37,220 bases of DNA, taken from contig CALUSW010000009.1 of the NCBI GenBank assembly GCA_944323535.1, forward strand, positions 1-37,220, in the 5' to 3' direction. Below, one piece after another: positions 2,238 to 34,267 of this stretch; the stretch's first letter is position 1, and each line of letters begins with the position of its first letter. Both the position numbers and the translations under genes were made by a program. The stretch is from Candidatus Gastranaerophilales bacterium (GTDB lineage Bacteria > Cyanobacteriota > Vampirovibrionia > Gastranaerophilales > Gastranaerophilaceae). The notes under the pieces are model-generated. The model made no database searches. It saw nothing but the letters and a program-made list of their open reading frames with translations, and was not told the origin of the DNA.

Positions 2238-3275
2238 ATGTTCCAAAAGTTAGAATTATTCTTTAAGAAAGAGAAAAAGAAATTCAAATATGTCAGCTGC
2301 GAGTATATACAGCACGGATTTAACGTGGATTATGAAGATATAAAAATGTGTTGTTTTAATTGTCATGAAGGCGGCGGAAGACAAATTCTGATTGACAATT
2401 ATAAAGGTGAAATGATTGATTGGAACAAGTTCTTTAAAGAAAAACGCAAAATGCGTGAGTTAAATAAGAAGGGGATTATTCTTGAGCGCTGCAAGGGATG
2501 TTTTTTCTTAAAAGAACGTGAATGGGATGATGAAGACTATATAAATTATATGGTATTTAATCATTGGACACAGTGCAACTGCAAGTGTAAATACTGTTTT
2601 ACAAATGAGCAGTCGGATTATTTTAATGAGCGTAAGAATTATAATATGTATCCCGTTATAAAAAAGCTTGCAGATATGGGAAAAATAAGAGGCGGGGGAG
2701 AAATCGGCTTTGGAGGCGGAGAACCGGCTTTACTTCCGGAGTTTGAACCTATGGTTAATATGCTTCTTGATTGCGGCTGCGACAATATAAGAGTGCATTC
2801 TTCGGGTGTAAAATATTCTAATGCGATTGAAAGAGGTCTTGCCGAAGGGAAGTTAACTCTTGTTGTTTCGGTGGATTCGGGAACCCCCGAAACTTACGAA
2901 AATATTAAAAGAGTTAATCATTTTAACAAAGTTTGGGAAAATCTTAAAAAATATGCCGCTTCTCAAACAACTGATTTATATAAAGCTAAAACAAAATATA
3001 TTATTTATCCGGGGTTTAATGATAACAAAGAAGAACTTGATAAATGGCTGGATTTAACGGTTGAAGCCGGAATTAAAAGTGTTGTTCTTGATGTTGAGGG
3101 CGGCTGGTATGTAAATAATAAATATAATGTACCCGATTATATGTATGATTTGCTTGAATATGCCGAACGCAGAACAAAAGAATTAAATATGAAAAATGTA
3201 GAATTCTATGATCGTGCAAATGATATGAGGATACACAAAGACGAGTATAAAAAATTAAGAGAAAATGAACAGTAA
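2238..3275 (+). CDS. Radical SAM enzyme with cysteine-rich N-terminal extension
   Basis: A 345-residue radical SAM protein. The iron-sulfur motif CX3CX2C is at Cys113, Cys117 and Cys120 and is followed by the SAM-binding GGGEP stretch near residue 160. Unusually, about 110 residues precede the cluster motif and contain further cysteines (21, 38, 39, 42, 85, 88) that could bind an auxiliary cluster. The C-terminal half keeps the strand pattern of a TIM-barrel (VVSVDSGTPETYENI, KYIIYPGFND). Substrate unknown; the family includes peptide-modifying enzymes and many uncharacterised ones. ATG at 2238 has AGAGG upstream. Its last 11 bases overlap the MATE exporter, so the two are probably co-translated and may act together. 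Confidence 0.85.
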   Translation: MFQKLELFFKKEKKKFKYVSCEYIQHGFNVDYEDIKMCCFNCHEGGGRQILIDNYKGEMIDWNKFFKEKRKMRELNKKGIILERCKGCFFLKEREWDDEDYINYMVFNHWTQCNCKCKYCFTNEQSDYFNERKNYNMYPVIKKLADMGKIRGGGEIGFGGGEPALLPEFEPMVNMLLDCGCDNIRVHSSGVKYSNAIERGLAEGKLTLVVSVDSGTPETYENIKRVNHFNKVWENLKKYAASQTTDLYKAKTKYIIYPGFNDNKEELDKWLDLTVEAGIKSVVLDVEGGWYVNNKYNVPDYMYDLLEYAERRTKELNMKNVEFYDRANDMRIHKDEYKKLRENEQ

Positions 3276-4608
3276 AGATATTATACAAGCCGAAACACAT
3301 AAAGGATACAAACATTATTTTACAGAGTTGTTAATTCTCGCTTTCCCGCTATTAATAGGGAATCTCGGGCATACTTTAATCGGTGCTACGGATATTCTTG
3401 TTGTTGCTAAGTATAATATAAATTCTCTTGCTGCAATAAGTATTGCTAATTCAATATTATTTACCATATTTATATTCGGACTCGGAATATTGGCTGCAAT
3501 ATCCATAATTCTGTCAAATATGAGAGGCTCAAGGCAAAGAACAAAAAAATATCTTCTCTCAAGCCTTGTTTTTGCTTTCATTATGGCTTCAATTTTTACA
3601 ATGCTTTGTTATTCAACAAAATTTCTGGTTGATAAAATGGGCTTTGAAGCTGAATTGGTTCCATATATAAAAGAATATATTTCGATAGTTTCTTTTTCTA
3701 TATTCGGAATGTATATATATCAGGGAGTTAAGGAATTTCTTCAATCTTATGAAATAGTTAAATTCCCTAACCTTATATTATTTGTTGCGGTAATTTTAAA
3801 TCTTATCTTTGATATAGTTCTGGTATTCGGATTTGGACCTGTTCCTTCAATGGGGTCAAAGGGTGCTGCAATAGCAACATTTTCCGTTAGAATACTAATG
3901 GGAATAATAATGCTTATTTATGTATTTCGGTTTATTGATTTTAAAGCGAAAATTGATTTTACTTATATGAAACATCTGATAAAAATAGGTTATCCTATAG
4001 GAGCTGCACTTCTATTGGAATTTCTTGCTTTTAATATTATAACAATACTTGTCGGAAGAGAATCGGGGCTTTTATCGGCTACTCATAATATAATAACAAC
4101 AATATCTTCTTCAACATTTATGGTGCCGTTGGCTATATCAACAGCCGTTGCTATAAAAGTTGCATATTATTACGGCGCTAAGAAAAGCGAAGAAATTAAA
4201 AGGTATGCATGCGCAGGGTTAACAATAGGAACAGGGTTTATGGTGTTTTCATCAATAATACTGGCACTTTTCCCCAGACAGCTGATAAGATTGTTTACGG
4301 ATAACCCTGATGTTTTAAATATTGCAATGCCAATAGTTCTTGTTGCAGCGATGTTTCAAGTTTTTGACGGATTTCAGGTCGTGGCAGGAGGCATCTTAAA
4401 AGGGTTTAAAATGACTAAAGTTGTTTCTCACTGTGTATTTCTCGGATATTGGCTTGTTGGTATGCCGGTTGCTTATGTTCTTGTGTTCAAAAATAACTAT
4501 TCGCTGAAAGGTTACTGGATAGCACTTGCGGTATCTCTATTTTGTATGGGTATAGCGCAGGCGCTTATAGCTAAATACAAGTTTAATAAAATAAAGGATT
4601 TATCATAA
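3265..4608 (+). CDS. MATE family efflux transporter
   Basis: A 447-residue, very hydrophobic protein of about twelve membrane segments in two homologous halves, the usual length and layout of MATE (NorM/DinF-like) cation-coupled exporters in the cytoplasmic membrane. Characteristic parts include LAFPLLIGNLGHTLIGATDI in the first helix and VVAGGILKGFKMTK in the second half. The start codon lies inside the end of the radical SAM gene. Such exporters move drugs, metabolites or small secreted products; the overlap suggests it may export what the radical SAM enzyme modifies, but that is inference. No other biosynthetic gene follows. Confidence 0.9.
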   Translation: MNSKDIIQAETHKGYKHYFTELLILAFPLLIGNLGHTLIGATDILVVAKYNINSLAAISIANSILFTIFIFGLGILAAISIILSNMRGSRQRTKKYLLSSLVFAFIMASIFTMLCYSTKFLVDKMGFEAELVPYIKEYISIVSFSIFGMYIYQGVKEFLQSYEIVKFPNLILFVAVILNLIFDIVLVFGFGPVPSMGSKGAAIATFSVRILMGIIMLIYVFRFIDFKAKIDFTYMKHLIKIGYPIGAALLLEFLAFNIITILVGRESGLLSATHNIITTISSSTFMVPLAISTAVAIKVAYYYGAKKSEEIKRYACAGLTIGTGFMVFSSIILALFPRQLIRLFTDNPDVLNIAMPIVLVAAMFQVFDGFQVVAGGILKGFKMTKVVSHCVFLGYWLVGMPVAYVLVFKNNYSLKGYWIALAVSLFCMGIAQALIAKYKFNKIKDLS

Positions 4609-13285: not shown

Positions 13286-14002
13286 ATGGCTTCTTTAATA
13301 AATTCTCTGCGTAATATATCAAGTGATTCCTTTTGGGCTCCGAAATTGGCTTTTTTATCTTTTTTTATATATATAATACTTGATAATGAAGAACAGATAA
13401 GTCAGGTTGGTTCGGCTATTCCGTTATTCTCTCTTTTTATTATTATAGTTTTTATGGGTTGTGCATCAGTAATGATGAACAGAAATATAAATAATAAAAC
13501 TCCGCTGCTGCCAGGGTTATTTAGTCTTCCAGAGGTTTTTGTAAAATCAATAGGTTGTACAATTTCAATGATACCCGGAACTGTAATTTATGTTTTTTGT
13601 ATATCATATATTCAAAAATATTTAATATTTGAAACTTTTGTAATGATAGTTATATATTCCTGTGTTACTTTATTCTTTCTTCCTTTTATCTGTATTCCTG
13701 CTGTATTATACAGTGTAAACGGAAAATTAAAGGATGCTTTCAGGTTTGATATAATTTTTGCAGGTTCCGGCAACTTTGTCGTTCAGGTTTTATCTTATAT
13801 TATTCAATATTTCTTTATAATAGCTTTGTTTGCTTATTTATTATATAAATTGTTTGTTTCTATGCTTGGAGAAGAATCTATATTTATCCCGATAGTGTAT
13901 AGTATAACAATAGTTGTATCGTTTCTTTCTTTCTTCTCTTTTTGTGCTGACTTATATGAGGATGTGATTCCGCCGCTTAAATCAAAAAGGGATATTTTTT
14001 AA
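13286..14002 (+). CDS. Hypothetical polytopic membrane protein
   Basis: A 238-residue hydrophobic protein with about six membrane segments, no motif that I recognise, and a short polar C-terminus ([15 protein letters not shown]). Its layout loosely resembles DUF4013-like membrane proteins but I would not assign it. It has an excellent ribosome-binding site (AAGGAGG) and starts 32 bases after ftsH, so it is probably transcribed with it. Its 3' end overlaps the convergent uvrB by about 20 bases. Confidence 0.8.
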
Positions 14003-15967
14003 TTTTTTAATCTGGTTTCTTATTTCTGCAGCCCTTTCAAAATCAAGAATAGAGGCTGCTTTTTTCATTGATTTTTCTAATTTATCCAATAACTTGGGCA
14101 AATCTTTTTCTGATATGTTATTTTCTGCCATTTCTTCAGCTACAATATCTTCAATATTTCTGTAGCTTGCAACCAGCTGCAGCAGATTATTTTCTATGGG
14201 TTTTTTTATTGTTTGAGGTGTAATATTGTGAACTTTATTATATTCAAGCTGCAGAGTTCTTCTTCTTTGAGTTTCTTTTATAGCCCTGTCCATACTGTCG
14301 GTAATTTTATCAGCATACATTATAACCTTTGAACAGACATTTCTTGCTGCTCTTCCTATAGTCTGGATAAGACTGGTTTCTGACCGCAAGAAACCCTCTT
14401 TATCCGCATCCATTATTGCGACAAGCGATACTTCCGGAATGTCAAGACCTTCTCTTAACAGGTTTACGCCTATTAAAACATCAAAAAGCCCGAGTCTTAA
14501 ATCTCTTAGTATTTCAACACGCTCTATTGATGTTATTTCACTGTGAAGATATCTAACTTTTATTCCCAGCTGCTGCAGATAGTCGCATAAATCTTCCGCC
14601 ATTTTTTTTGTCAGGGTAGTAACCAAAATCCTTTCTTTTTTATCTGTTACTTTTTTAATTTCTGATATTAAATCATCCACCTGATTAAGTGTGGGTCTAA
14701 CAAATATTTCAGGGTCAACAAGACCTGTCGGTCTTATTATTTGTTCCACAATCTGAGATGATGTTTCTTTTTCAAAATCAGAAGGAGTCGCTGATACATA
14801 TATTTTTTGATTTACTTTCTGCCAGAATTCTTCAATCTTTAAGGGTCTGTTATCTTTTGCGCTCGGCAGTCTGAAACCGTAGTCAACAAGAACCGTTTTT
14901 CTTGCCTGATCACCGTTATACATCGCTTTTAATTGCGGAATGGTTACATGCGATTCATCTATAACAAGTAAAAAATCATCATTAAAATAATCAAGCAGAG
15001 TAGCCGGTGCACTCCCTTTCGGACGTCTTTCTATTATTCTTGAATAATTTTCTATACCGCTGCAGTAGCCCATTTCTTTTATCATTTCTATATCATAATT
15101 TGTTCTTTGATATATTCTCTGGGCTTCAATAAGTTTGTTTTCAAACTCAAATTTCTTTACCTGTTCAGATAATTCCTGCCTTATTAATTTTATTGTTTCT
15201 TCTTTATCTTCATCTCCTGAAATATAATGTACGGCAGGGAAAATCACTGTAGTATTTACATCTTCCAGTATTTCGCCGGAAACGGGATTTATTCTTGATA
15301 TTCTTTCGATTTCATCTCCGAATAGATAAATTCTTGTGACCATTTTTTCGTATGCAGGCATGATCTCTATTATGTCGCCTCTCGGACGGAAGGTTGAGCG
15401 TGTCAATTCCAAATCATTTCTGCTGTATTGAATATTAACGAGCTCTTTTAAAAATGCATTTCTGTCTATTTCGTCGCCGACTTCTATTTTTAATGCGCCT
15501 TTAAAATATTGTTCCGGCAAACCTAAGCCGTATATACAGCTTACCGATGCAACAACAATTACATCATTTCTTTCATATAAACTTCTTGTTGTATTATGGC
15601 GAAGTCTGTCTATTTCATCATTTATAGTTGCGGATTTTTCAATGTATGTATCACTGCGCGGAATATAAGCTTCCGGCTGATAGTAGTCATAATAGCTTAT
15701 AAAATATTCAACCGCATTATTGGGGAAAAGCTCTTTAAACTCATTATAAAGCTGGGCGGCAAGAGTTTTATTATGCGCAATAACAAGAGTTTGTTTCTGC
15801 ATTTTTTCTATAACATTTGCTATTGTGAAAGTTTTTCCGGAGCCTGTAATACCCAGAAGAGTCTGGGCATCATAACCGTTTAATAGCCCCTCCGTAAGTT
15901 CTTTAATAGCTTTAGGCTGATCTCCCGACGGTTTATATTTTGAATTTATTTTAAATGGCTTTTCCAT
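13982..15967 (-). CDS. uvrB: UvrABC system protein B
   Basis: Damage-verifying helicase-like subunit of nucleotide excision repair. Visible are the Q-motif region [10 protein letters not shown], Walker A GITGSGKT (residues 39-46), the beta-hairpin region [20 protein letters not shown], the DESH box in [11 protein letters not shown], helicase motifs V and VI ([23 protein letters not shown]) and a C-terminal UVR domain ([20 protein letters not shown]) that recruits UvrC. 661 residues is normal. The ATG at 15967 has no Shine-Dalgarno but a TACAAT six bases upstream, so its transcript may be leaderless. Confidence 0.97.
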
Positions 15968-16049: not shown

Positions 16050-17855
16050 TTAAATATTGTTATTTAAGTTTTCTGCTTTTTTAATTATAAATTTATAGTA
16101 TTTGCTTATTACTTTTTTTAATAATTTATTTTTAGAGTTTGTATAATAATATTTAAGGTTTTTAATTATATTAAATCTGAGCTTGCCATATTTTGCAATG
16201 TATAAATATTGCCACTGGCAGCCAATTGAACTATCAAAAACCGTTTTCATTTTTTTGTTAATTAGATTCATAATATTGGATTTGTAATTTTCATAATCAG
16301 CAGAATAATTAATTAAGCTTTTGTAATATTCACGATGTTTAAAAAGGATAGAATTTTCAGGAAAGAAAAGGTTTCTGATAGTTGATATTGCATCTATATT
16401 TCCGGCATTTTTTTTAATGAAATCGAAAGCAGCCTTCATTTCTTCTTTTGTTTCGGTAGGAAAACCGAAAATTAAATAAACAGAATTTAAAATACCTGCT
16501 TTATGTGAATTTTCTAAAATTTTTTCTGCGGTTTTAATGTTTATATTCTTGTTAATAATATCATTACAAATACGCTGTGAAGTTGAATCTAGCCCCCAAT
16601 GAACTGCAATGCATCCTGATTTTTTAATTTTCTTTAATAATTCTGGATTGAATTCTTTTTCTAATCTTGCATAGATATTATATTTTATATTAATATTTCT
16701 TTCGAGTAAGAGGTCAGCAACTTTTGATATATATTGAGGGTGCAGTGCATTGTCCCAAAAAGCAAAATATTTGGTATTGTATTTTTTTGATAAAAACTCT
16801 ATTTCATCAACAAGCCTTTTTGCACTCATAATTCTAAAATGTTTTTCTTCTCCGGAGCAAGAGCAATATATGCATTTGCCCCAATAGCAAGAAGTTGACA
16901 TTGATGCACGTACAGGCAAAACAAGTTCCGGAAGGAAATAATCATTTTCTTTATATCCGGAAAAAGATTGAAATGGTAGTTGGTTAATATTTACTAACTT
17001 TTCACATTCGTTAAATTGTAATTTATCATTATTGAGATAAATAAGATTTGAAACATCACTGATTGGGATATCTTTGTTAACAAATTTTGCTAACTCAAGA
17101 ACTGTATTAGTGCTTTCCCCTACGGCAATAGAATCAAAAAATATACCGAATAATTCTTTTAAATTTTTGATTCTTTTAAAATTTTCTTCAAAGAAATTGC
17201 CTCCGATTGTTAAATGCACATTTTTATTAATTTGTTTTATAGCGTAACACAGCAATAATCCGGAAATTAAATCGTTATAATTTATAATTTGAACACCAAT
17301 AATATCAGGTTTTTTGCTTAGAATAATTGAAGCTTTTTGCAAGTAGAAATCTTTTAGACAATTATAATTGCAGTTAAAAATAAATAAAATATCATCAGGA
17401 GTAATACAGAAATCATTTTCATTATAATAAGCAAATGAAGCCAATAAAGGTATATGAATGTTTTTAATGTGGAATAATAAATTTTGATAATACCAGTAAA
17501 TAGAGAAAGAATACATTATTTTTTTATTTTTTGCGAGATTTCTATATATTTCAAAGTTACGAGCATTTTTGCTAAGCCAAGATAAACTTGTCAAAAAATT
17601 ATCTTTTTGTCTTAATAAAGTATCTTTGAAGTAAGGATGAAAATTATAATATTCTTTTTTTTCACAAAAGGATAAAAATTTGTTGTATTCTTGTAAAATT
17701 TTATTATTATCCAAATAATCTAAATAATCTGCATTTAAATTAATATATTGGCAATTAATGCCATTGTTTTCTAAAACCCCGATTAAAGACGGAATTCCCG
17801 GTATTGGCATTATGTCCGAAGCGTATATTACCGGTTTTAGAAATAGATACAGCAT
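16050..17855 (-). CDS. B12-binding-domain radical SAM enzyme, substrate unknown
   Basis: A 601-residue protein with the layout of B12-dependent radical SAM enzymes: an N-terminal Rossmann-like cobalamin-binding domain (start LFLKPVIYAS..., PGIPSLIGVLENNGINCQYI, then KPDIIGVQIINYNDL and HLTIGGNFFEENF) followed by the radical SAM core. The cluster cysteines are Cys323, Cys328 and Cys331, giving CX4CX2C instead of CX3CX2C. Later core parts include AFWDNALHPQYI, YARLEKEFNPELLKKIKKSG, VHWGLDSTSQRI and YLIFGFPTETKEEM. Such enzymes methylate or otherwise modify unreactive carbons of natural products, including peptides. An in-frame stop three codons upstream fixes the ATG at 17855. The short peptide gene at 17997-18179 lies just upstream on the same strand, suggesting a modified peptide. 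Confidence 0.85.
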   Translation of the reverse strand: MLYLFLKPVIYASDIMPIPGIPSLIGVLENNGINCQYINLNADYLDYLDNNKILQEYNKFLSFCEKKEYYNFHPYFKDTLLRQKDNFLTSLSWLSKNARNFEIYRNLAKNKKIMYSFSIYWYYQNLLFHIKNIHIPLLASFAYYNENDFCITPDDILFIFNCNYNCLKDFYLQKASIILSKKPDIIGVQIINYNDLISGLLLCYAIKQINKNVHLTIGGNFFEENFKRIKNLKELFGIFFDSIAVGESTNTVLELAKFVNKDIPISDVSNLIYLNNDKLQFNECEKLVNINQLPFQSFSGYKENDYFLPELVLPVRASMSTSCYWGKCIYCSCSGEEKHFRIMSAKRLVDEIEFLSKKYNTKYFAFWDNALHPQYISKVADLLLERNINIKYNIYARLEKEFNPELLKKIKKSGCIAVHWGLDSTSQRICNDIINKNINIKTAEKILENSHKAGILNSVYLIFGFPTETKEEMKAAFDFIKKNAGNIDAISTIRNLFFPENSILFKHREYYKSLINYSADYENYKSNIMNLINKKMKTVFDSSIGCQWQYLYIAKYGKLRFNIIKNLKYYYTNSKNKLLKKVISKYYKFIIKKAENLNNNI

Positions 17856-17996
17856 TAATAATTACCCATATCAGTTTTATGCAATGAATTTTACCTTCCT
17901 GTTAAAAATTGTTTTTTTGAGTAGTGCGTTAAAAAGGCAATCAACTGGACTACGATGATGAACCGGTAGTATGCTAGTGATACTGGATTATATAAA

Positions 17997-18179
17997 TTAA
18001 AATTTAGAAGACTTTACCATAGTATTATATACTATCAAGTTTTCATCAACAAATATATCATCTTCATTTAAGGCTGTTTCATTTTCATCTGTTTGCCCGG
18101 AAGGGAATAATTCATATGATTCCGAACTCTGATTTTTGTTAAACATTTCTTTCATTGAATCTAAAAAGTTTTTCTTCAT
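17997..18179 (-). CDS. 60-residue peptide, candidate RiPP precursor
   Basis: A small soluble peptide beginning MKKNFLDSMKEMFNKNQ: a basic, amphipathic first part (about 1-16), an acidic middle (about 25-50, with ENETALNEDD) and a short C-terminal end NLIVYNTMVKSSKF. It contains no cysteine and no signal peptide. ATG at 18179 is chosen because AAAAGGA lies 7 bases upstream; an in-frame ATG at 18206 has none. Position upstream of, and in line with, a B12-type radical SAM gene (141 bases between) is the usual arrangement of a RiPP precursor and its modifying enzyme. No known precursor family is recognised, so function is inferred from context only. Confidence 0.55.
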   Translation of the reverse strand: MKKNFLDSMKEMFNKNQSSESYELFPSGQTDENETALNEDDIFVDENLIVYNTMVKSSKF

Positions 18180-18382
18180 TGTTGTATCCTTTTTGTATTT
18201 ATGCATTTTCTATATAAAATTCTTATAAGTAAGATATCTTTGCACAACGTACGGCTGTATTGATGATTAGTTCTTAATTTAAAACAAAAAAATAGTGATA
18301 TTAGAATTTATCCATAATATATTTCATTTCTAACTGATCAAAAAATTAATATAGAAATAACTAACAGCGTTATACAGTGTTA

Positions 18383-18417
18383 AAAGCTCTTTGTAAATAT
18401 ATAAAGAGCTTTATAAT
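18383..18417 (+). promoter_or_regulatory. Inverted repeat overlapping the XRE gene promoter
   Basis: Perfect 10-base arms AAAGCTCTTT (18383-18392) and AAAGAGCTTT (18403-18412) separated by 10 bases run directly into TATAAT (18412-18417), about 48 bases before the XRE start. There is no T-run after it on the plus strand, so an operator for the XRE protein (autoregulation) is more likely than a terminator. The remaining bases of the 18180-18464 divergent spacer show nothing else firm. Confidence 0.5.
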
Positions 18418-18464: not shown

Positions 18465-18746
18465 ATGAAAAAATCATTTGGTAAAAGAATTAAAGAATTA
18501 AGAGTAAGAAATCATTATACACAGGAAAAACTCGCTGAAATTTTAGATATAGGTGAAAGAAATTTAAGTAAAATAGAGTGCGGAGTGAATTTTGTTAGTT
18601 CTGAAACTCTTGAGAAATTATCTTCTGCATTAAACGTACCCATAAAAGATTTATTTGACTTTGATCACCTTAATGAAGATACTCTAAAAAAAGAAGAACT
18701 TATAAGTTCTATTCAAAATAATATCATAGATATAGATATTGTATAA
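18465..18746 (+). CDS. XRE-family helix-turn-helix regulator
   Basis: A 93-residue protein with a Cro/C1-type domain over about residues 7-65: GKRIKELRVRNHYTQEKLAE, then ILDIGERNLSKIECG as recognition helix region, then SSETLEKLSSALNVPIKDLF. The last 25 residues form an acidic tail ending DIDIV. AGAGG lies just before the ATG. It is divergent from the peptide/radical SAM genes and precedes the TPR gene; a perfect inverted repeat covers its putative promoter. Role as local regulator is inferred. Confidence 0.9.
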   Translation: MKKSFGKRIKELRVRNHYTQEKLAEILDIGERNLSKIECGVNFVSSETLEKLSSALNVPIKDLFDFDHLNEDTLKKEELISSIQNNIIDIDIV

Positions 18747-18820: not shown

Positions 18821-20611
18821 ATGAATATGAGTAATATATCACAATATCTAAAAACAGCATTTGAATATAAAAACAGCGGAAATTATAAGGAAGCTATAGA
18901 TTATTTTTATAAAGCTCTTGCTCTTGATAATGACAGTCTGGAAATAATATGTGAACTGGCTTTTTTGTATGGAAAATTGTGCCAGTATGATAGAGCTGTA
19001 AGTTTATATGAACAATTTTTGCAGAAAAATCCTGATGATAACTCTGTTAAATATAATTATGCTATGTTGTGCAAACAAATAAAAAATTATGTTAAAGCAG
19101 AAAAAATATTAATAGAATTGTTTGAAAAAGGATATGATATTAATCGTGTCGCAGGAGAACTTTTTGAAATATTCCTGAAAAATAAGGAATATGAAAAAAT
19201 AATATCGTATTATATTAGAAAAACAAATGTTTTAAATACAAGTTTAAATTTATATTATATAGGTTTAGCGTATTTAAAAACTGAAAAAAGGAATATTGCT
19301 GAGGAACTTTTTAAAAAATCTTTTGAATTGGATAAAAATAATATAGAATCAGGTATTATTATTGTTGAAATGCTTTTTGAACAAGAACTATATAATGAAG
19401 CGGAAGAGCTTATTTTACAACTATTAAAACTTTCTGAAAATGACAGGTTGTTTTATATACTTGCCGAAATATATTATTTAAGAAATGAAATCGATAATGC
19501 TATTAAATATTATTCTTATGCAATTAAAATAAATGACAAAAATCCTGTATATTTCTTTAAAATTGGTGTTGCATTCTCTCTTAAAGGATTTTTTAATGAA
19601 GCAGAAGAAAGTTTTTGCAGAGCAATAACTCTTGAACCTGAAAATTTAACATATAACTATGCATTGGCTTATTTATATTATATGAATAAAAAATATGTGT
19701 TATCAGAAAAAATAACTGATAATTTGTTGTTAATAAACGGAGAATATATTCAGGCTCTTGCTTTGAAATTAATTTTGTTAACAGCTAAAAATGAGGCAGT
19801 TCAGGCTTCAAAAATCTTAGAAAAAATTATTCATAAAGATGAAAAAGATGATTTTGTTTATCATGCAATTGCCGGTTATTATGAAAAATTATGTATATGG
19901 GATAAAGCCATTAACGCTGTAAAAGAGGCTGTCAGGCTTAATGGTAATTCTGTTGAATATTTATACAAGCTGGCTAAGTATTATTATAATCTCGGTCAGT
20001 TTGAAAAGAGTATTGATATATGTGATGAAATTATAGTAAAAAATCCTAAATATATAGATACTTATATATTGTTGGCAAATATATTTTTGACAAAAAAAGA
20101 TTATAAAAAGGTGCTGGACTATGCAAAACAAATATTAAATCTTGATATTAATTGCTTTGATGCCTATTTTTTAATTGGAATTGTTGATTATGAACACAAA
20201 CAATATGAAAGTGCTATAAATAACTTTAAAACAGCTGTTTCAATACGTCCGGATAATGAAAAATGTTATATGAAAATAGCATTATGTTATTTTATTTTAG
20301 AAAAATATGAAAATGCTTATTTCTATTTTAAAGAAGCCGCGGAAATAGATATAACAAATCCGGAATACAGATTTTATATGGCAAAATGTTGTATTGAAAC
20401 AGGCGATAGAGAGAATGCAATATCAAATTTCTCAATTATGAAACGACTGGCACCGTCAAATTTGGAATATATTAAAGAATATGCTGATTATATGAAACTT
20501 ATCGGAAATGAGAGAAAAGCGTTATCAATATTAAAATCAACTGCTAAATCTGTTTCATCGAAAGAAGAAAAAGAAAAAATAAAAGAAATTATGATTCAAA
20601 TAAAAAAATAA
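18821..20611 (+). CDS. Large tetratricopeptide repeat protein
   Basis: 596 residues made almost wholly of about 15 TPR units of 34 residues, from KTAFEYKNSGNYKEAIDYFYKAL-like units at the N-terminus to ERKALSILKSTAK at the end. The consensus W/L-G-Y-A-F-A-P positions are visible (for example FKIGVAFSLKGFFNEAEESF, FLIGIVDYEHKQYESAINNF). No signal peptide, catalytic domain or membrane segment is seen, so it is probably a cytoplasmic protein-interaction scaffold. It starts 74 bases after the XRE gene but seems to have its own promoter. Partner unknown. Confidence 0.92.
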   Translation: MNMSNISQYLKTAFEYKNSGNYKEAIDYFYKALALDNDSLEIICELAFLYGKLCQYDRAVSLYEQFLQKNPDDNSVKYNYAMLCKQIKNYVKAEKILIELFEKGYDINRVAGELFEIFLKNKEYEKIISYYIRKTNVLNTSLNLYYIGLAYLKTEKRNIAEELFKKSFELDKNNIESGIIIVEMLFEQELYNEAEELILQLLKLSENDRLFYILAEIYYLRNEIDNAIKYYSYAIKINDKNPVYFFKIGVAFSLKGFFNEAEESFCRAITLEPENLTYNYALAYLYYMNKKYVLSEKITDNLLLINGEYIQALALKLILLTAKNEAVQASKILEKIIHKDEKDDFVYHAIAGYYEKLCIWDKAINAVKEAVRLNGNSVEYLYKLAKYYYNLGQFEKSIDICDEIIVKNPKYIDTYILLANIFLTKKDYKKVLDYAKQILNLDINCFDAYFLIGIVDYEHKQYESAINNFKTAVSIRPDNEKCYMKIALCYFILEKYENAYFYFKEAAEIDITNPEYRFYMAKCCIETGDRENAISNFSIMKRLAPSNLEYIKEYADYMKLIGNERKALSILKSTAKSVSSKEEKEKIKEIMIQIKK

Positions 20612-30615: not shown

Positions 30616-32073
30616 TTAATCAAAATCCTCCATAAGACAATTTTTCAATTCAATTATATTAAGATTATCAATATCATAATTGTAAATTGATGCAATTATC
30701 AATTGGTGATTTGAAAAATCTCGTTTTAATATTTCAATCATTTTATGAATATTCATATCATCTACTTCTTTCCCTCTAGGCGAATCAAGAATAATAGGGA
30801 CATTTATATATTTATAGTCTTCAAGTATTTTTATATAAGCAAGCCTAAATGCAAAAACTATGCAGTGAAAAATGGCTCCACTTAAAGATTTTAAATCAGA
30901 TGTAAAAATATAATCATTTGACGCACTGACATATCTTTCATCTACTCCCATTTCTTTTGCATAATTCGAAATATAATTATGCAATTCATTTATAAGTTGA
31001 TTATTGCTTTTAGTTTTTTGATCAATTTCTGATTTAAGTTTTGTTCTTTGGTTTTCAAGTTTTTTAATCATATTTTCAACACTGATATAATTAATGTTTA
31101 TTTTAGAAATATCTGAATCAAATTTTGAGATAATATCCTCTGTTTCTGTTTGAAATAATAAATTATCTGTGAGCTGTTTACGTTTATATATCTGTATCAT
31201 TTTATCAATATTTGAAATTTTTGAATTGACAATATTTATTTTAGCTGCAATATAATTTATATTATCTTTAAAGCCTTCAATAGTTTTTTCATTTACGGGG
31301 GTTCTATTACCATTTTCGTCTATAACATGTAATTTCATATCTGTAATATATTTACGGAAACCCATATTCTTCTTTAGCACATTCATTAAGCGTTCTTGCT
31401 CAATAATTAAAGGTCTTTTTTCAAATTCAAGGAGAGCAATCTCTTTTTCAAGTTTATCATTATATGAATCATATTCTGTAATTTTATTTAATTTGTTAAT
31501 TTGATTTTGATAATTAGCAACAGACAACATACTTCTATACTTTTTTATTTGAAATTCTATATATGATAACTCTTCATATAAATTAAAACAATTAATGTCT
31601 CCTATCCCCTGAATAAATTTGTCAATATTAAAACGAATAGAACCAATCACAACGCCTCTATTAAGTAATGTCCAACCTTTTTCTTGATCTACATACATAG
31701 GTGCTAGTATATTATCAATAATATTTTTATTATTATTTTCAAAAATTAGACTATGCAGTTCTTGAACATTTGCAGGTATTGAAAAATATAGTTCTTTACT
31801 ATCGGTAATATTTTGGACATAACAGTAAACATCTCTTCTTTTTATCAAAAGATCTTTATTCGAATCAGTATTAATAGTTAATTCAAATTTGCATTCTTCA
31901 AATTTAAAATTTTTTGTATTTGGAATATTAAACCCCAGGGAATACAATAATGCTCGAAGAAGTGTAGTTTTACCGACACTATTTTTCTTACTGTAGATTA
32001 AATTATAGTTATCCTCAAAATAAAAAGTTCTACTAAATAAGCCAAATATAATTTTTAATTTTTTTAATCGCAT
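30616..32073 (-). CDS. SMC/ABC-like ATPase of a candidate defence pair
   Basis: 485 residues with the RecF/SMC/Rad50 layout: an N-terminal P-loop (SKKNSVGKTTLLR, residues 28-40), a long coiled-coil middle (about 180-375), and a C-terminal part with LKSLSGAIFHCIVFAFRLAY as signature-helix region and Walker B IILDSPRG (Asp430). The first glycine of the classical P-loop is Lys29, and the Asp is followed by Ser-Pro rather than Glu, features seen in several divergent defence ATPases. It is shorter than typical LmuB. AAAAAAGGAG lies inside the end of the nuclease gene, which it overlaps by 10 bases, so the two proteins are surely made together. Best guess: sensor ATPase of a Lamassu/ABC-3C-type system. 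Confidence 0.8.
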   Translation of the reverse strand: MRLKKLKIIFGLFSRTFYFEDNYNLIYSKKNSVGKTTLLRALLYSLGFNIPNTKNFKFEECKFELTINTDSNKDLLIKRRDVYCYVQNITDSKELYFSIPANVQELHSLIFENNNKNIIDNILAPMYVDQEKGWTLLNRGVVIGSIRFNIDKFIQGIGDINCFNLYEELSYIEFQIKKYRSMLSVANYQNQINKLNKITEYDSYNDKLEKEIALLEFEKRPLIIEQERLMNVLKKNMGFRKYITDMKLHVIDENGNRTPVNEKTIEGFKDNINYIAAKINIVNSKISNIDKMIQIYKRKQLTDNLLFQTETEDIISKFDSDISKININYISVENMIKKLENQRTKLKSEIDQKTKSNNQLINELHNYISNYAKEMGVDERYVSASNDYIFTSDLKSLSGAIFHCIVFAFRLAYIKILEDYKYINVPIILDSPRGKEVDDMNIHKMIEILKRDFSNHQLIIASIYNYDIDNLNIIELKNCLMEDFD

Positions 32074-33095
32074 ATATTGGCTCCTTTTTTAATTTTATCT
32101 ATAATATAACGATTTGAAATTATTTTACTTAGAATTACTTTTACTAAGCAATTTTTCGTATATTCATCTATATTACTAATATCAAATTCATTTAAATATT
32201 TACCATATTCTTCATTAATAAATTTTTCTGTTCGTTCTTTCCAAGTTAAATTATTTAAATAACCAACAAAATCGTTTAATACCTTGTTGATAAATATAAA
32301 TTCTTCAGTTTTATTGTCTATAATTGCTCGGTATTTATGTTCTATTTCATTGATTATAGCATCATCACAATCTTGTAAGTATTTATCATGTCTATCAAAA
32401 TTACAAGCTTCAGCTATTAAAGCCCACATCATTTCTTTTTTCTTTATTTGTATAGCCGAATTAGGAATTGTTGCATTATGAAAAAAATCTCGTTGCCATA
32501 TCTCAAGCATTTTTCGTGGAGTATAAGGAGAATGTATATCAAGCTGTTCTAAAAACTCACTTACAGCTTCTTTAATTGCCTTGTCTCGATTATTTTTGTC
32601 ATCGCCATAAAAAGGTAATACATAGACTTTTAATTTATTTGTATCAATAGAATAATTATTTTGGGTTATGATACGAGCAACTTTTTCTTTACATTTTTGA
32701 GGTAATTCATTATAACCTAATTTGGTTCTTCCTATAAAATATTGGATTGATGCTTTATCATTAAATGGATTTGAATGATTTGTAATATAAATTAAGTTTT
32801 CTGCATCTCCATTATTATAAGCATTGTTTAATGTTCTAATTCCTTCTTTTAATTTACTTAATAGATTCGCAGTTGAATCTATATTTTCTATTGACTTTGC
32901 TTGAGAATAAATTATATTGTTATTTTCCAACTTAATTTCAATATCTTCTGTTTGAGCTTCCACTTTTATAGATTTTGCGGATTTAATATTTTCAAGCATT
33001 AACAAAATTGCTGCATTTGTTTGAAAATCCCAGCCAAAAGCAGATGCAGAGGCATTAGAATCGTTATTTTGATTTTGTAAATTATTTCTTACCAT
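32064..33095 (-). CDS. DUF4297/Cap4-type nuclease effector
   Basis: 343 residues. The first 70 match the DUF4297 (Cap4-like dsDNA nuclease) pattern: FGWDFQTNAAILLMLENI (Gly21, Gln25), then EAQTEDIEIKL with Glu50-Asp51, and IIYSQAKSI with Gln65 and Lys67, the E/D-QxK catalytic arrangement of a PD-(D/E)XK enzyme. The remaining 250 residues are helical with no SAVED or other nucleotide-sensing domain recognised; they may bind the partner ATPase. Overlap with the SMC-like gene suggests an effector-sensor pair as in Lamassu or ABC-three-component systems. No small third component is seen unless it lies in the C-terminal region. Confidence 0.75.
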   Translation of the reverse strand: MVRNNLQNQNNDSNASASAFGWDFQTNAAILLMLENIKSAKSIKVEAQTEDIEIKLENNNIIYSQAKSIENIDSTANLLSKLKEGIRTLNNAYNNGDAENLIYITNHSNPFNDKASIQYFIGRTKLGYNELPQKCKEKVARIITQNNYSIDTNKLKVYVLPFYGDDKNNRDKAIKEAVSEFLEQLDIHSPYTPRKMLEIWQRDFFHNATIPNSAIQIKKKEMMWALIAEACNFDRHDKYLQDCDDAIINEIEHKYRAIIDNKTEEFIFINKVLNDFVGYLNNLTWKERTEKFINEEYGKYLNEFDISNIDEYTKNCLVKVILSKIISNRYIIDKIKKGANICD

Positions 33096-33153
33096 CGTCC
33101 GTTAAATTCCTGTTAAATTTATTTAAATTAACATAATAATGACAACATTTGAG

Positions 33154-34164
33154 TTATTTATCTTTTAGTTGCAACAATTTTATATTTTCTTTTTGAAGCA
33201 TATCCGCAAGTTCTTCTTCTGTTGGGAGAACTGTTTTATACTTGCTTGCAAAAATCTGCCGGCTTTCCTGCAACACAGAATATTTAACCATAGTTTCGGA
33301 TTTATCCGTACAAAAAATTATGCCGATAGTCGGATTGTCGTCCGCTCCACGCTTTAATTCATCAAACATTCTGACATACATATCCATTTGCCCGATGTCT
33401 GCGTGGGATAACTTTGTTGTTTTTAAATCAATAACCACAAAGCATTTTAACAGATAATTGTAAAACACCAGATCCGCATAGAAATGGTCAGTTTCCGTAC
33501 TAATTCTAAATTGGCGGGCAACAAAAGAAAATCCTTTGCCCAATTCAAGTAAAAACTTTTGTAAATTATTGATTAAAGCTGATTCTAAAGCACTTTCTTT
33601 GCCTTCGATATTTTCAGGCAAATTCAGAAATTCCAAGACATACGGATCTTTAATAAATTCTTTTGTATCAATAACGGCAGGCAAACATTTTTCAGTGGTA
33701 TTTACTCCTTCTTGAGTTGATAAAAGCCTGTGATAATAACCGCTCTTGATATTGCGTTCAAGCTGGCGGTATGACCAATTTTGTGATGCAGCTTCTTTTA
33801 GATAATAATTCCTTTCTTCCGGATTATCAATCCTTATAATCCTTGCTATATTTGACCAGGATAAATTCGCTAGACACTGTCTGTCGAATTCAGGATATGC
33901 AATATAAAAACTTCTCATACTTTTCAAATTTGCTTCTGAAAAGCCTTTGCCAAAAGTATCCGTAAGGTATCTTGATAAATTTTCGATAAGTTTAGTCCCG
34001 TATTCCGCACGGGAAGCACCGCCCTGTTCTTCTTCTACAATACGCTGTCCGATTTTCCAGTATGTTTCAACCATAATGGAATTCACTGTATGATATGCTT
34101 TAGCCCGTGCTAAGTTCAGTAATTCTGCTATATCACTATAAATTTTGGCGACTTCATTTGCCAT
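33154..34164 (-). CDS. DUF1016 / YhcG-type PD-(D/E)XK nuclease protein
   Basis: 336 residues from the ATG at 34164, chosen for GGAGGT just upstream over an in-frame ATG at 34233. The N-terminal DUF1016 domain is recognisable by VETYWKIGQRIVEEEQGG and YLTDTFGKGFSEANLKSMR; the C-terminal nuclease domain by DHFYADLVFYNYLLKCFVVI with the DLK motif, then ADIGQMDMYVRMFDE and GIIFCTDKSE. The family is frequent in defence islands and beside restriction-modification genes, function unsettled. It lies 58 bases upstream of the nuclease-ATPase pair in the same direction and may be co-transcribed. Confidence 0.92.
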   Translation of the reverse strand: MANEVAKIYSDIAELLNLARAKAYHTVNSIMVETYWKIGQRIVEEEQGGASRAEYGTKLIENLSRYLTDTFGKGFSEANLKSMRSFYIAYPEFDRQCLANLSWSNIARIIRIDNPEERNYYLKEAASQNWSYRQLERNIKSGYYHRLLSTQEGVNTTEKCLPAVIDTKEFIKDPYVLEFLNLPENIEGKESALESALINNLQKFLLELGKGFSFVARQFRISTETDHFYADLVFYNYLLKCFVVIDLKTTKLSHADIGQMDMYVRMFDELKRGADDNPTIGIIFCTDKSETMVKYSVLQESRQIFASKYKTVLPTEEELADMLQKENIKLLQLKDK

Positions 34165-34267
34165 AAATACCTCCAGATAAGTTAATTTTAACATGAAAAT
34201 ATACGAAAATACTGATTTTATAAGTAATAACAATATAACCTGAAATACTAAATAAAAATTTTGTCAA

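Follow-up and report, generated by a model that had tools for sequence, protein, structure and literature searches.

The stretch of DNA analyzed here, referred to as the window, comprises 37,220 nucleotides from a Candidatus Gastranaerophilales bacterium and carries a compact set of genes between a TPR-repeat gene and uvrB. The order on the minus strand is (i) a 60-codon ORF (18179-17997), (ii) a gap of 141 bp, (iii) a 601-codon gene (17855-16050), and (iv) uvrB (15967-13982). The plus strand carries, divergently from the peptide ORF, a gene for a 93-residue XRE protein (18465-18746), which is followed by the TPR-repeat gene. Handles such as G024 denote the genomes compared, G000 being the window's own, and C54 and C11 are contigs of the latter. 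The features of the locus and the basis of each assignment are as follows.

17997..18179, minus strand: candidate precursor peptide of 60 residues, type A (ORF; relatives; leave-one-out profile)
18187..18191, minus strand: ribosome-binding site AAGGA of the peptide (sequence; the counterpart in the C54 paralogue is AAGAAGGATAAA-ATG)
16050..17855, minus strand: cobalamin-type radical SAM enzyme of 601 residues (Pfam/NCBIfam, alignment, tree, predicted model)
18465..18746, plus strand: XRE-family regulator, divergent, part of the cassette (domain match; related XREs at TupA-peptide loci)
18369..18397, minus strand: candidate promoter TTTACA-17-TATAAC for the peptide transcript (comparison with the G024 locus)
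18383..18412, unstranded: inverted repeat AAAGCTCTTT-ATATATTTAC-AAAGAGCTTT across the -35 box, a possible operator for the XRE protein (retained in G024 in part only)
18301..18327, minus strand: remnant of the first codons of a TupA-like ATP-grasp gene, MKYIMDKF* (aligned to the G024 TupA start, MKYLLD...)
13982..15967, minus strand: uvrB, conserved right-hand neighbor marking the insertion site
18821..20611, plus strand: TPR-repeat protein, conserved left-hand neighbor of uvrB in cassette-less genomes

The sequence-only reading of this DNA had described a 60-residue ORF with a good ribosome-binding site, a cobalamin-type radical SAM gene 141 bp downstream on the same strand, a divergent XRE gene beyond the peptide, and the absence of a protease or transporter beside the pair; each of these is borne out. 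Elsewhere in the window, two genes at 30616-34233 match the candidate defence system PDC-M46 (A, E 4e-114; B, E 2e-165) and lie beside a YhcG/PDC-S02 nuclease gene. The segment 24218-30228 has the look of a mobile element that integrated there, with a GIY-YIG-like gene, a ParB/N6-N4 DNA methylase, and a large serine recombinase. At 2238-4608, another radical SAM gene, unrelated to the first and with a weak viperin-like match, overlaps a gene for a MATE-type transporter.

The candidate precursor begins with ATG, spans 60 residues (MKKNFLDSMKEMFNKNQSSESYELFPSGQTDENETALNEDDIFVDENLIVYNTMVKSSKF) with no Cys, and has its ribosome-binding site AAGGA 8-12 nt before the start codon. An alternative in-frame ATG at 18206 would give a product of 69 residues; it has no ribosome-binding site, and the starts of the relatives match the M(K)K position. 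The 14 N-terminal residues (MKKNFLDSMKEMFN) are leader-like and are followed by an acidic middle, just as described from the sequence alone, and the last 10-14 residues are predicted to form the core. No Pfam or NCBIfam model matches the peptide; the sequence-only reading, too, had recognized no matching precursor family. Compared with the C54 paralogue, the first 14 codons differ at 3, 1, and 6 sites in codon positions 1, 2, and 3, respectively, a coding-like pattern in a small sample. When the window peptide and the C54 paralogue are withheld from the profile, the window peptide ranks first among 26,613 short ORFs not used for training; the E value of 0.018 is modest, and the weight comes mostly from the conserved position beside the enzyme. 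Leave-one-out profiles for the other type A members rank most of them between 1 and 13 and do not recover that of G052; because these results are weaker, position counts for as much as sequence in defining type A. The type A leader is drawn from only eight members and their similarity is weak, though the window peptide ranks first. Among 288 genomes, no convincing match to type A peptides appears beyond the known loci.

The 601-residue enzyme (17855-16050, minus strand) is stop-free and matches the Pfam Radical_SAM model with an E value of 9.5e-20, while its match to the B12-binding model is sub-threshold (E 0.0012; 19.1 vs 32.1 bits). Its AlphaFold model has a pLDDT of 90.5 and a pTM of 0.90, and the best PDB matches to it are OxsB, TsrM, MgmA, AprD4, CysS, and TokK, with which the sequence profile search agrees. 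The model and the fold search place it among the cobalamin-dependent radical SAM enzymes, with a B12 Rossmann domain and a barrel bearing the cluster cysteines, and thus support a complete cobalamin Rossmann and radical SAM architecture. In the predicted secondary structure, a B12 Rossmann domain carrying a long helical insertion (about residues 40-180) can be made out ahead of the radical SAM barrel. The cluster motif C323-YWGK-C328-IY-C331 (CYWGKCIYC, CX4CX2C) has three cysteines that are invariant across all aligned relatives.

The best NCBIfam match of the enzyme is TIGR03975, a RiPP maturation radical SAM C-methyltransferase (E 1.2e-26), at 93.4 bits against a curated cut-off of 281.85 bits; PhpK and ApyD also match, likewise far short of their cut-offs, and in the NCBIfam scan no RiPP radical SAM family model is matched at anything near its threshold. 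The Pfam and NCBIfam scans returned only radical SAM and weak B12-binding matches, with no RRE in or near the enzyme. An RRE is common in RiPP systems yet missing from many. The Cys-free peptide and the lack of a SPASM match in the window enzyme place the pair outside the sactipeptides and ranthipeptides. Points that count against a RiPP reading include these low family scores, the short Cys-free core of the window peptide, the lack of an RRE, a protease, and a transporter alongside it, and the weak sequence support within type A.

Support for that reading comes from C54 and from related genomes. The proposal that the locus is RiPP-like implied homologous peptides beside homologous enzymes, and the short precursor gene and the modifying-enzyme gene are indeed conserved together in C54 of the same genome and in G024, G029, G052, and G021. 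On C54, a second peptide copy (MKKDFFNSIKEMFGQKSANSGQEDLFPINETT...) lies about 0.3 kb before an enzyme that is 52-61% identical to that of the window and is frameshifted. The nearest enzymes in other species, those of G024 (50%) and G029 (45%), have similar peptides slightly upstream (MKNFFESFKNMFNS... and MSFFNFLSKGNS..., respectively) and a PurD-like ATP-grasp gene between peptide and enzyme. In G052 and G021, the peptides are of the MFE type, and the surrounding clusters are larger and also contain GT8 and radical SAM/SPASM genes along with two of the B12-radical SAM type. The related peptides of these four genomes are found with the order TupA-PurD-enzyme or TupA-GT8-enzyme. A tree of 33 enzymes places every peptide-adjacent enzyme, including that of the window, in one 14-row clade (100/100), which also contains three enzymes with no peptide found; within it, the window enzyme is sister to the C54 enzyme (100/97). 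The retention of the peptide beside the enzyme and the single enzyme clade, both read from sequence comparison, support the RiPP interpretation. Neither of the two outcomes that the sequence-only reading had named as refuting it, a peptide missing beside the enzyme in relatives or a frame with no sign of coding, was observed.

Three further arrangements were observed in these genomes. The paralogous precursor of C54 is out of frame at a 12-G run (G000:C54 7250-7265) in an AT-rich genome, possibly a phase-variable switch, decay, or an assembly error. In G021:C7 (2470-19900), an entire cluster of TupA, the peptide, GT8, a radical SAM gene, and two B12-radical SAM genes is duplicated in tandem, over about 10.7 kb. 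In G002:C5 (4231-18062), B12-radical SAM genes of about 550-580 residues stand in a tandem row of eight, and no obvious peptide gene lies between them.

The same comparisons bear on whether the enzyme acts instead on a small molecule, lipid, or polysaccharide, as relatives of BchE, HpnJ, and OxsB do, with the adjacent ORF being unrelated. The enzyme gives generic matches to the HpnJ, BchE, and BzaD models, many of the related radical SAM genes in these genomes lack a peptide neighbor, and glycosyltransferases lie close to some loci. Since wider members occur at housekeeping loci, the enzyme family as a whole is not RiPP-specific. However, in five genomes relatives of the peptide recur next to enzymes of this clade, and the chromosomal sites, among them the ftsZ side and the uvrB side, are unrelated; an enzyme with a non-peptide substrate and an unrelated ORF beside it is improbable.

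Comparison of the insertion site suggests how the cassette arose. The TPR gene and uvrB are directly adjacent in most genomes of the genus. In G024 the gap between them contains an XRE gene (71% identical), TupA, and a type A peptide, and in G034 the site holds a PurD-TupA-PurD-peptide group; in G011 the enzyme adjoins uvrB and no peptide was found. The intergenic DNA on the XRE side of the window aligns with that of G024 through the promoter (TTTACA-17-TATAAC in the window, TTGATT-17-TATAAT in G024) to the TupA start, where MKYIMDKF* gives an alignment score to the G024 TupA start that was reached by 4 of 2000 shuffles. On the basis of this aligned DNA, the window cassette probably once held a TupA gene. 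The relic is visible only in the alignment, as tblastn for TupA remnants in the window returned noise only. Likewise, a plain promoter/terminator consensus scan showed no excess over shuffles and did not list the promoter at 18369-18397, for which the G024 comparison alone is informative.

XREs that are 71-73% identical sit divergently beside TupA-peptide loci in G024 and G033, and further relatives occur at others. The idea that every TupA-peptide locus includes a divergent XRE was rejected, as one is present at about half of those with enough upstream sequence; that share makes the XRE the likely regulator of the cassette. The inverted repeat running from 18412 to 18383 over the -35 box is a possible XRE operator.

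The loss of TupA raises the question of whether the cassette is what is left of a TupA-type RiPP cluster in decay and now yields no product, a reading compatible with the RiPP interpretation of its parts. In the window, TupA is deleted to its first codons; on C54, both peptide and enzyme are frameshifted and TupA contains a stop; and G011 retains the enzyme next to uvrB without a detectable peptide. Given the broken C54 copy and the lost window TupA, the cassette may be decaying in this genome. In the window itself, however, the peptide frame, ribosome-binding site, promoter, and all enzyme motifs are intact, and the 601 enzyme residues are stop-free with a confident predicted fold, so that a defunct cassette is a doubtful, if real, possibility. 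The comparisons are based on comparative genomics with one genome per species, many of them MAGs, and errors of assembly may account for the frameshifts.

A TupA-like ATP-grasp gene (PF14305) precedes the peptide in most of the related loci. Among the 96 distinct examinable TupA-like genes obtained by searching the relatives with TupA, 59 have a directly following peptide, 52 being of type B and 7 of type A. Type B peptides start -16 to +43 bp from the TupA stop in 51 of 52 cases, and a few of the 59 peptides lie somewhat farther than about 40 bp. The window peptide falls outside a definition by a start within about 40 bp after a TupA-like gene, its TupA being missing save for the start relic. 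The type B leader has the form LSxEEIxELYSDIIE, and the cores are Cys/Gly/Tyr-rich and divergent. Per residue, the alignment score is 2.05 for the leader vs 0.73 when shuffled and 0.54 for the core vs 0.53 when shuffled; Cys accounts for 11.6% of core and 0.1% of leader residues, with at least two Cys in 35 of 43 cores. A fixed leader joined to a diverged core is the sequence pattern expected of RiPP precursors. Of 147 genomes, 23 contain the type B leader, and every one of these belongs to the window's genus; copy numbers, given as lower bounds, are at least 33 in G009 and at least 36 in G022. These peptides are covered by no Pfam or NCBIfam model. Direct homology between types A and B was not supported by the hhalign profile-profile comparison, which aligned 2 columns; their shared "DD-I/F-...-LI" look therefore counts only as a resemblance. 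Structure prediction for TupA was poor (pLDDT 62).

Two other loci with TupA-like genes deserve mention. On contig C11 of the window's genome, a 39-residue Cys/Gly-rich peptide (MKKLYIKRMVKFSYIVAGGCCHFFCGNWGGTQTSHWDAN; G000:C11 4167-4286, minus strand) directly precedes genes for a radical SAM/SPASM enzyme, an intact TupA-like ATP-grasp, and a B12-radical SAM enzyme; a MerR-like gene is divergent from them, and the whole is another candidate RiPP cluster. At G007:C23 7561-8490, a TupA-like gene has an in-frame TAG between two otherwise continuous halves and is directly followed by an intact type B peptide.

The family also informs the alternative that the window peptide is a small partner or regulatory protein, either an enzyme adaptor or a signal read by the XRE, rather than a matured substrate. 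A short, acidic, Cys-free peptide whose divergent XRE is kept with the cassette would suit such a role, as would the G021/G052 pair, in which the C-terminal half of the peptide is better conserved than the N-terminal half. This pair is the exception: C-terminal parts differ among all other type A members, the type B relatives combine a fixed leader with a freely varying Cys-rich core, and several different modifying enzymes share the same peptide position. A partner or regulatory function is improbable.

The favored reading, held at a probability of roughly 0.7, is that a small RiPP-type cassette lies between the TPR gene and uvrB, in which an XRE-controlled precursor undergoes leader-guided modification by the B12-radical SAM enzyme. 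The XRE protein would repress or activate the promoter driving the 60-residue precursor, the conserved N-terminal part (MKKNFLDSMKEMF...) would serve as the leader recognized by the adjacent enzyme, and the enzyme would modify C-terminal residues (about LIVYNTMVKSSKF). Judged from gene context and sequence, the peptide is probably modified chemically by the B12-type radical enzyme. Cobalamin radical SAM enzymes in RiPP pathways usually methylate carbon, and C-methylation is therefore the default guess and the most likely modification. Maturation would be finished by a general protease and an exporter encoded elsewhere in the genome. The ancestral cassette would have carried a TupA-like ATP-grasp gene directly before the peptide, joined in relatives by a PurD-like ATP-grasp; such a step is expected to form an amide or ester bond. 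With TupA deleted in the window and an intact TupA on contig C11, this step may be lost or supplied in trans.

More broadly, the related enzyme-peptide loci of the genus apparently constitute a large made-then-modified peptide family that is new to the literature; of the open-access papers covered by the search, none links TupA/PF14305, Melainabacteria, or Vampirovibrionia to such peptides. It is somewhat better than an even bet that the window locus represents, in reduced form, a new Gastranaerophilales RiPP class, in which a TupA-like ATP-grasp gene is directly followed by a precursor of the leader type whose core is hypervariable and usually rich in Cys, with optional tailoring by B12-radical SAM, SPASM radical SAM, PurD-like ATP-grasp, or GT8 enzymes and dozens of copies in some gut species. 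Gastranaerophilales are mostly uncultured gut relatives of cyanobacteria with small genomes. If the assignment is true, a genus-wide, highly expanded peptide system, with the TupA-type ATP-grasp as a new hallmark enzyme and with tailoring by B12-radical SAM enzymes, would offer a large and so far untapped supply of modified peptides and would hint at the way these bacteria deal with their neighbors or host. The TupA-like ATP-grasp family would also gain a testable peptide substrate.

Four known systems invite comparison. (i) TsrM, CysS, TokK, OxsB, and MgmA/Mmp10 share the predicted fold and domain order of the window enzyme, a cobalamin Rossmann domain and a radical SAM barrel, but are only 12-16% identical to it. 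Substrates in this group are free tryptophan, carrier-bound or small molecules, or protein glutamine. TsrM is a cited case of methyl transfer by a cobalamin radical SAM enzyme (PMC4632189). (ii) Graspetides and other ATP-grasp RiPPs resemble the wider genus family in having an ATP-grasp ligase gene directly beside the precursor gene; in the genus family, however, the ATP-grasp is of the TupA type (PF14305) or PurD-like, and the window copy is without one. The graspetide survey PMC8939145 does not mention TupA. (iii) The TIGR03975 (rSAM_ocin_1) systems likewise pair a short leader-type peptide with an adjacent radical SAM enzyme that is of the cobalamin type and has about 600 residues, whereas the window enzyme scores 93 vs 282 bits and has a CX4CX2C motif, and its peptide matches no precursor model. 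(iv) Streptide-type systems, whose Rgg regulation is described in PMC8326336, employ SPASM enzymes in contrast to the cobalamin type found here, and the 93-residue XRE of the window has an HTH domain match only; the two nonetheless share a common plan of a short Cys-free peptide, one radical SAM enzyme, and an XRE-type regulator.
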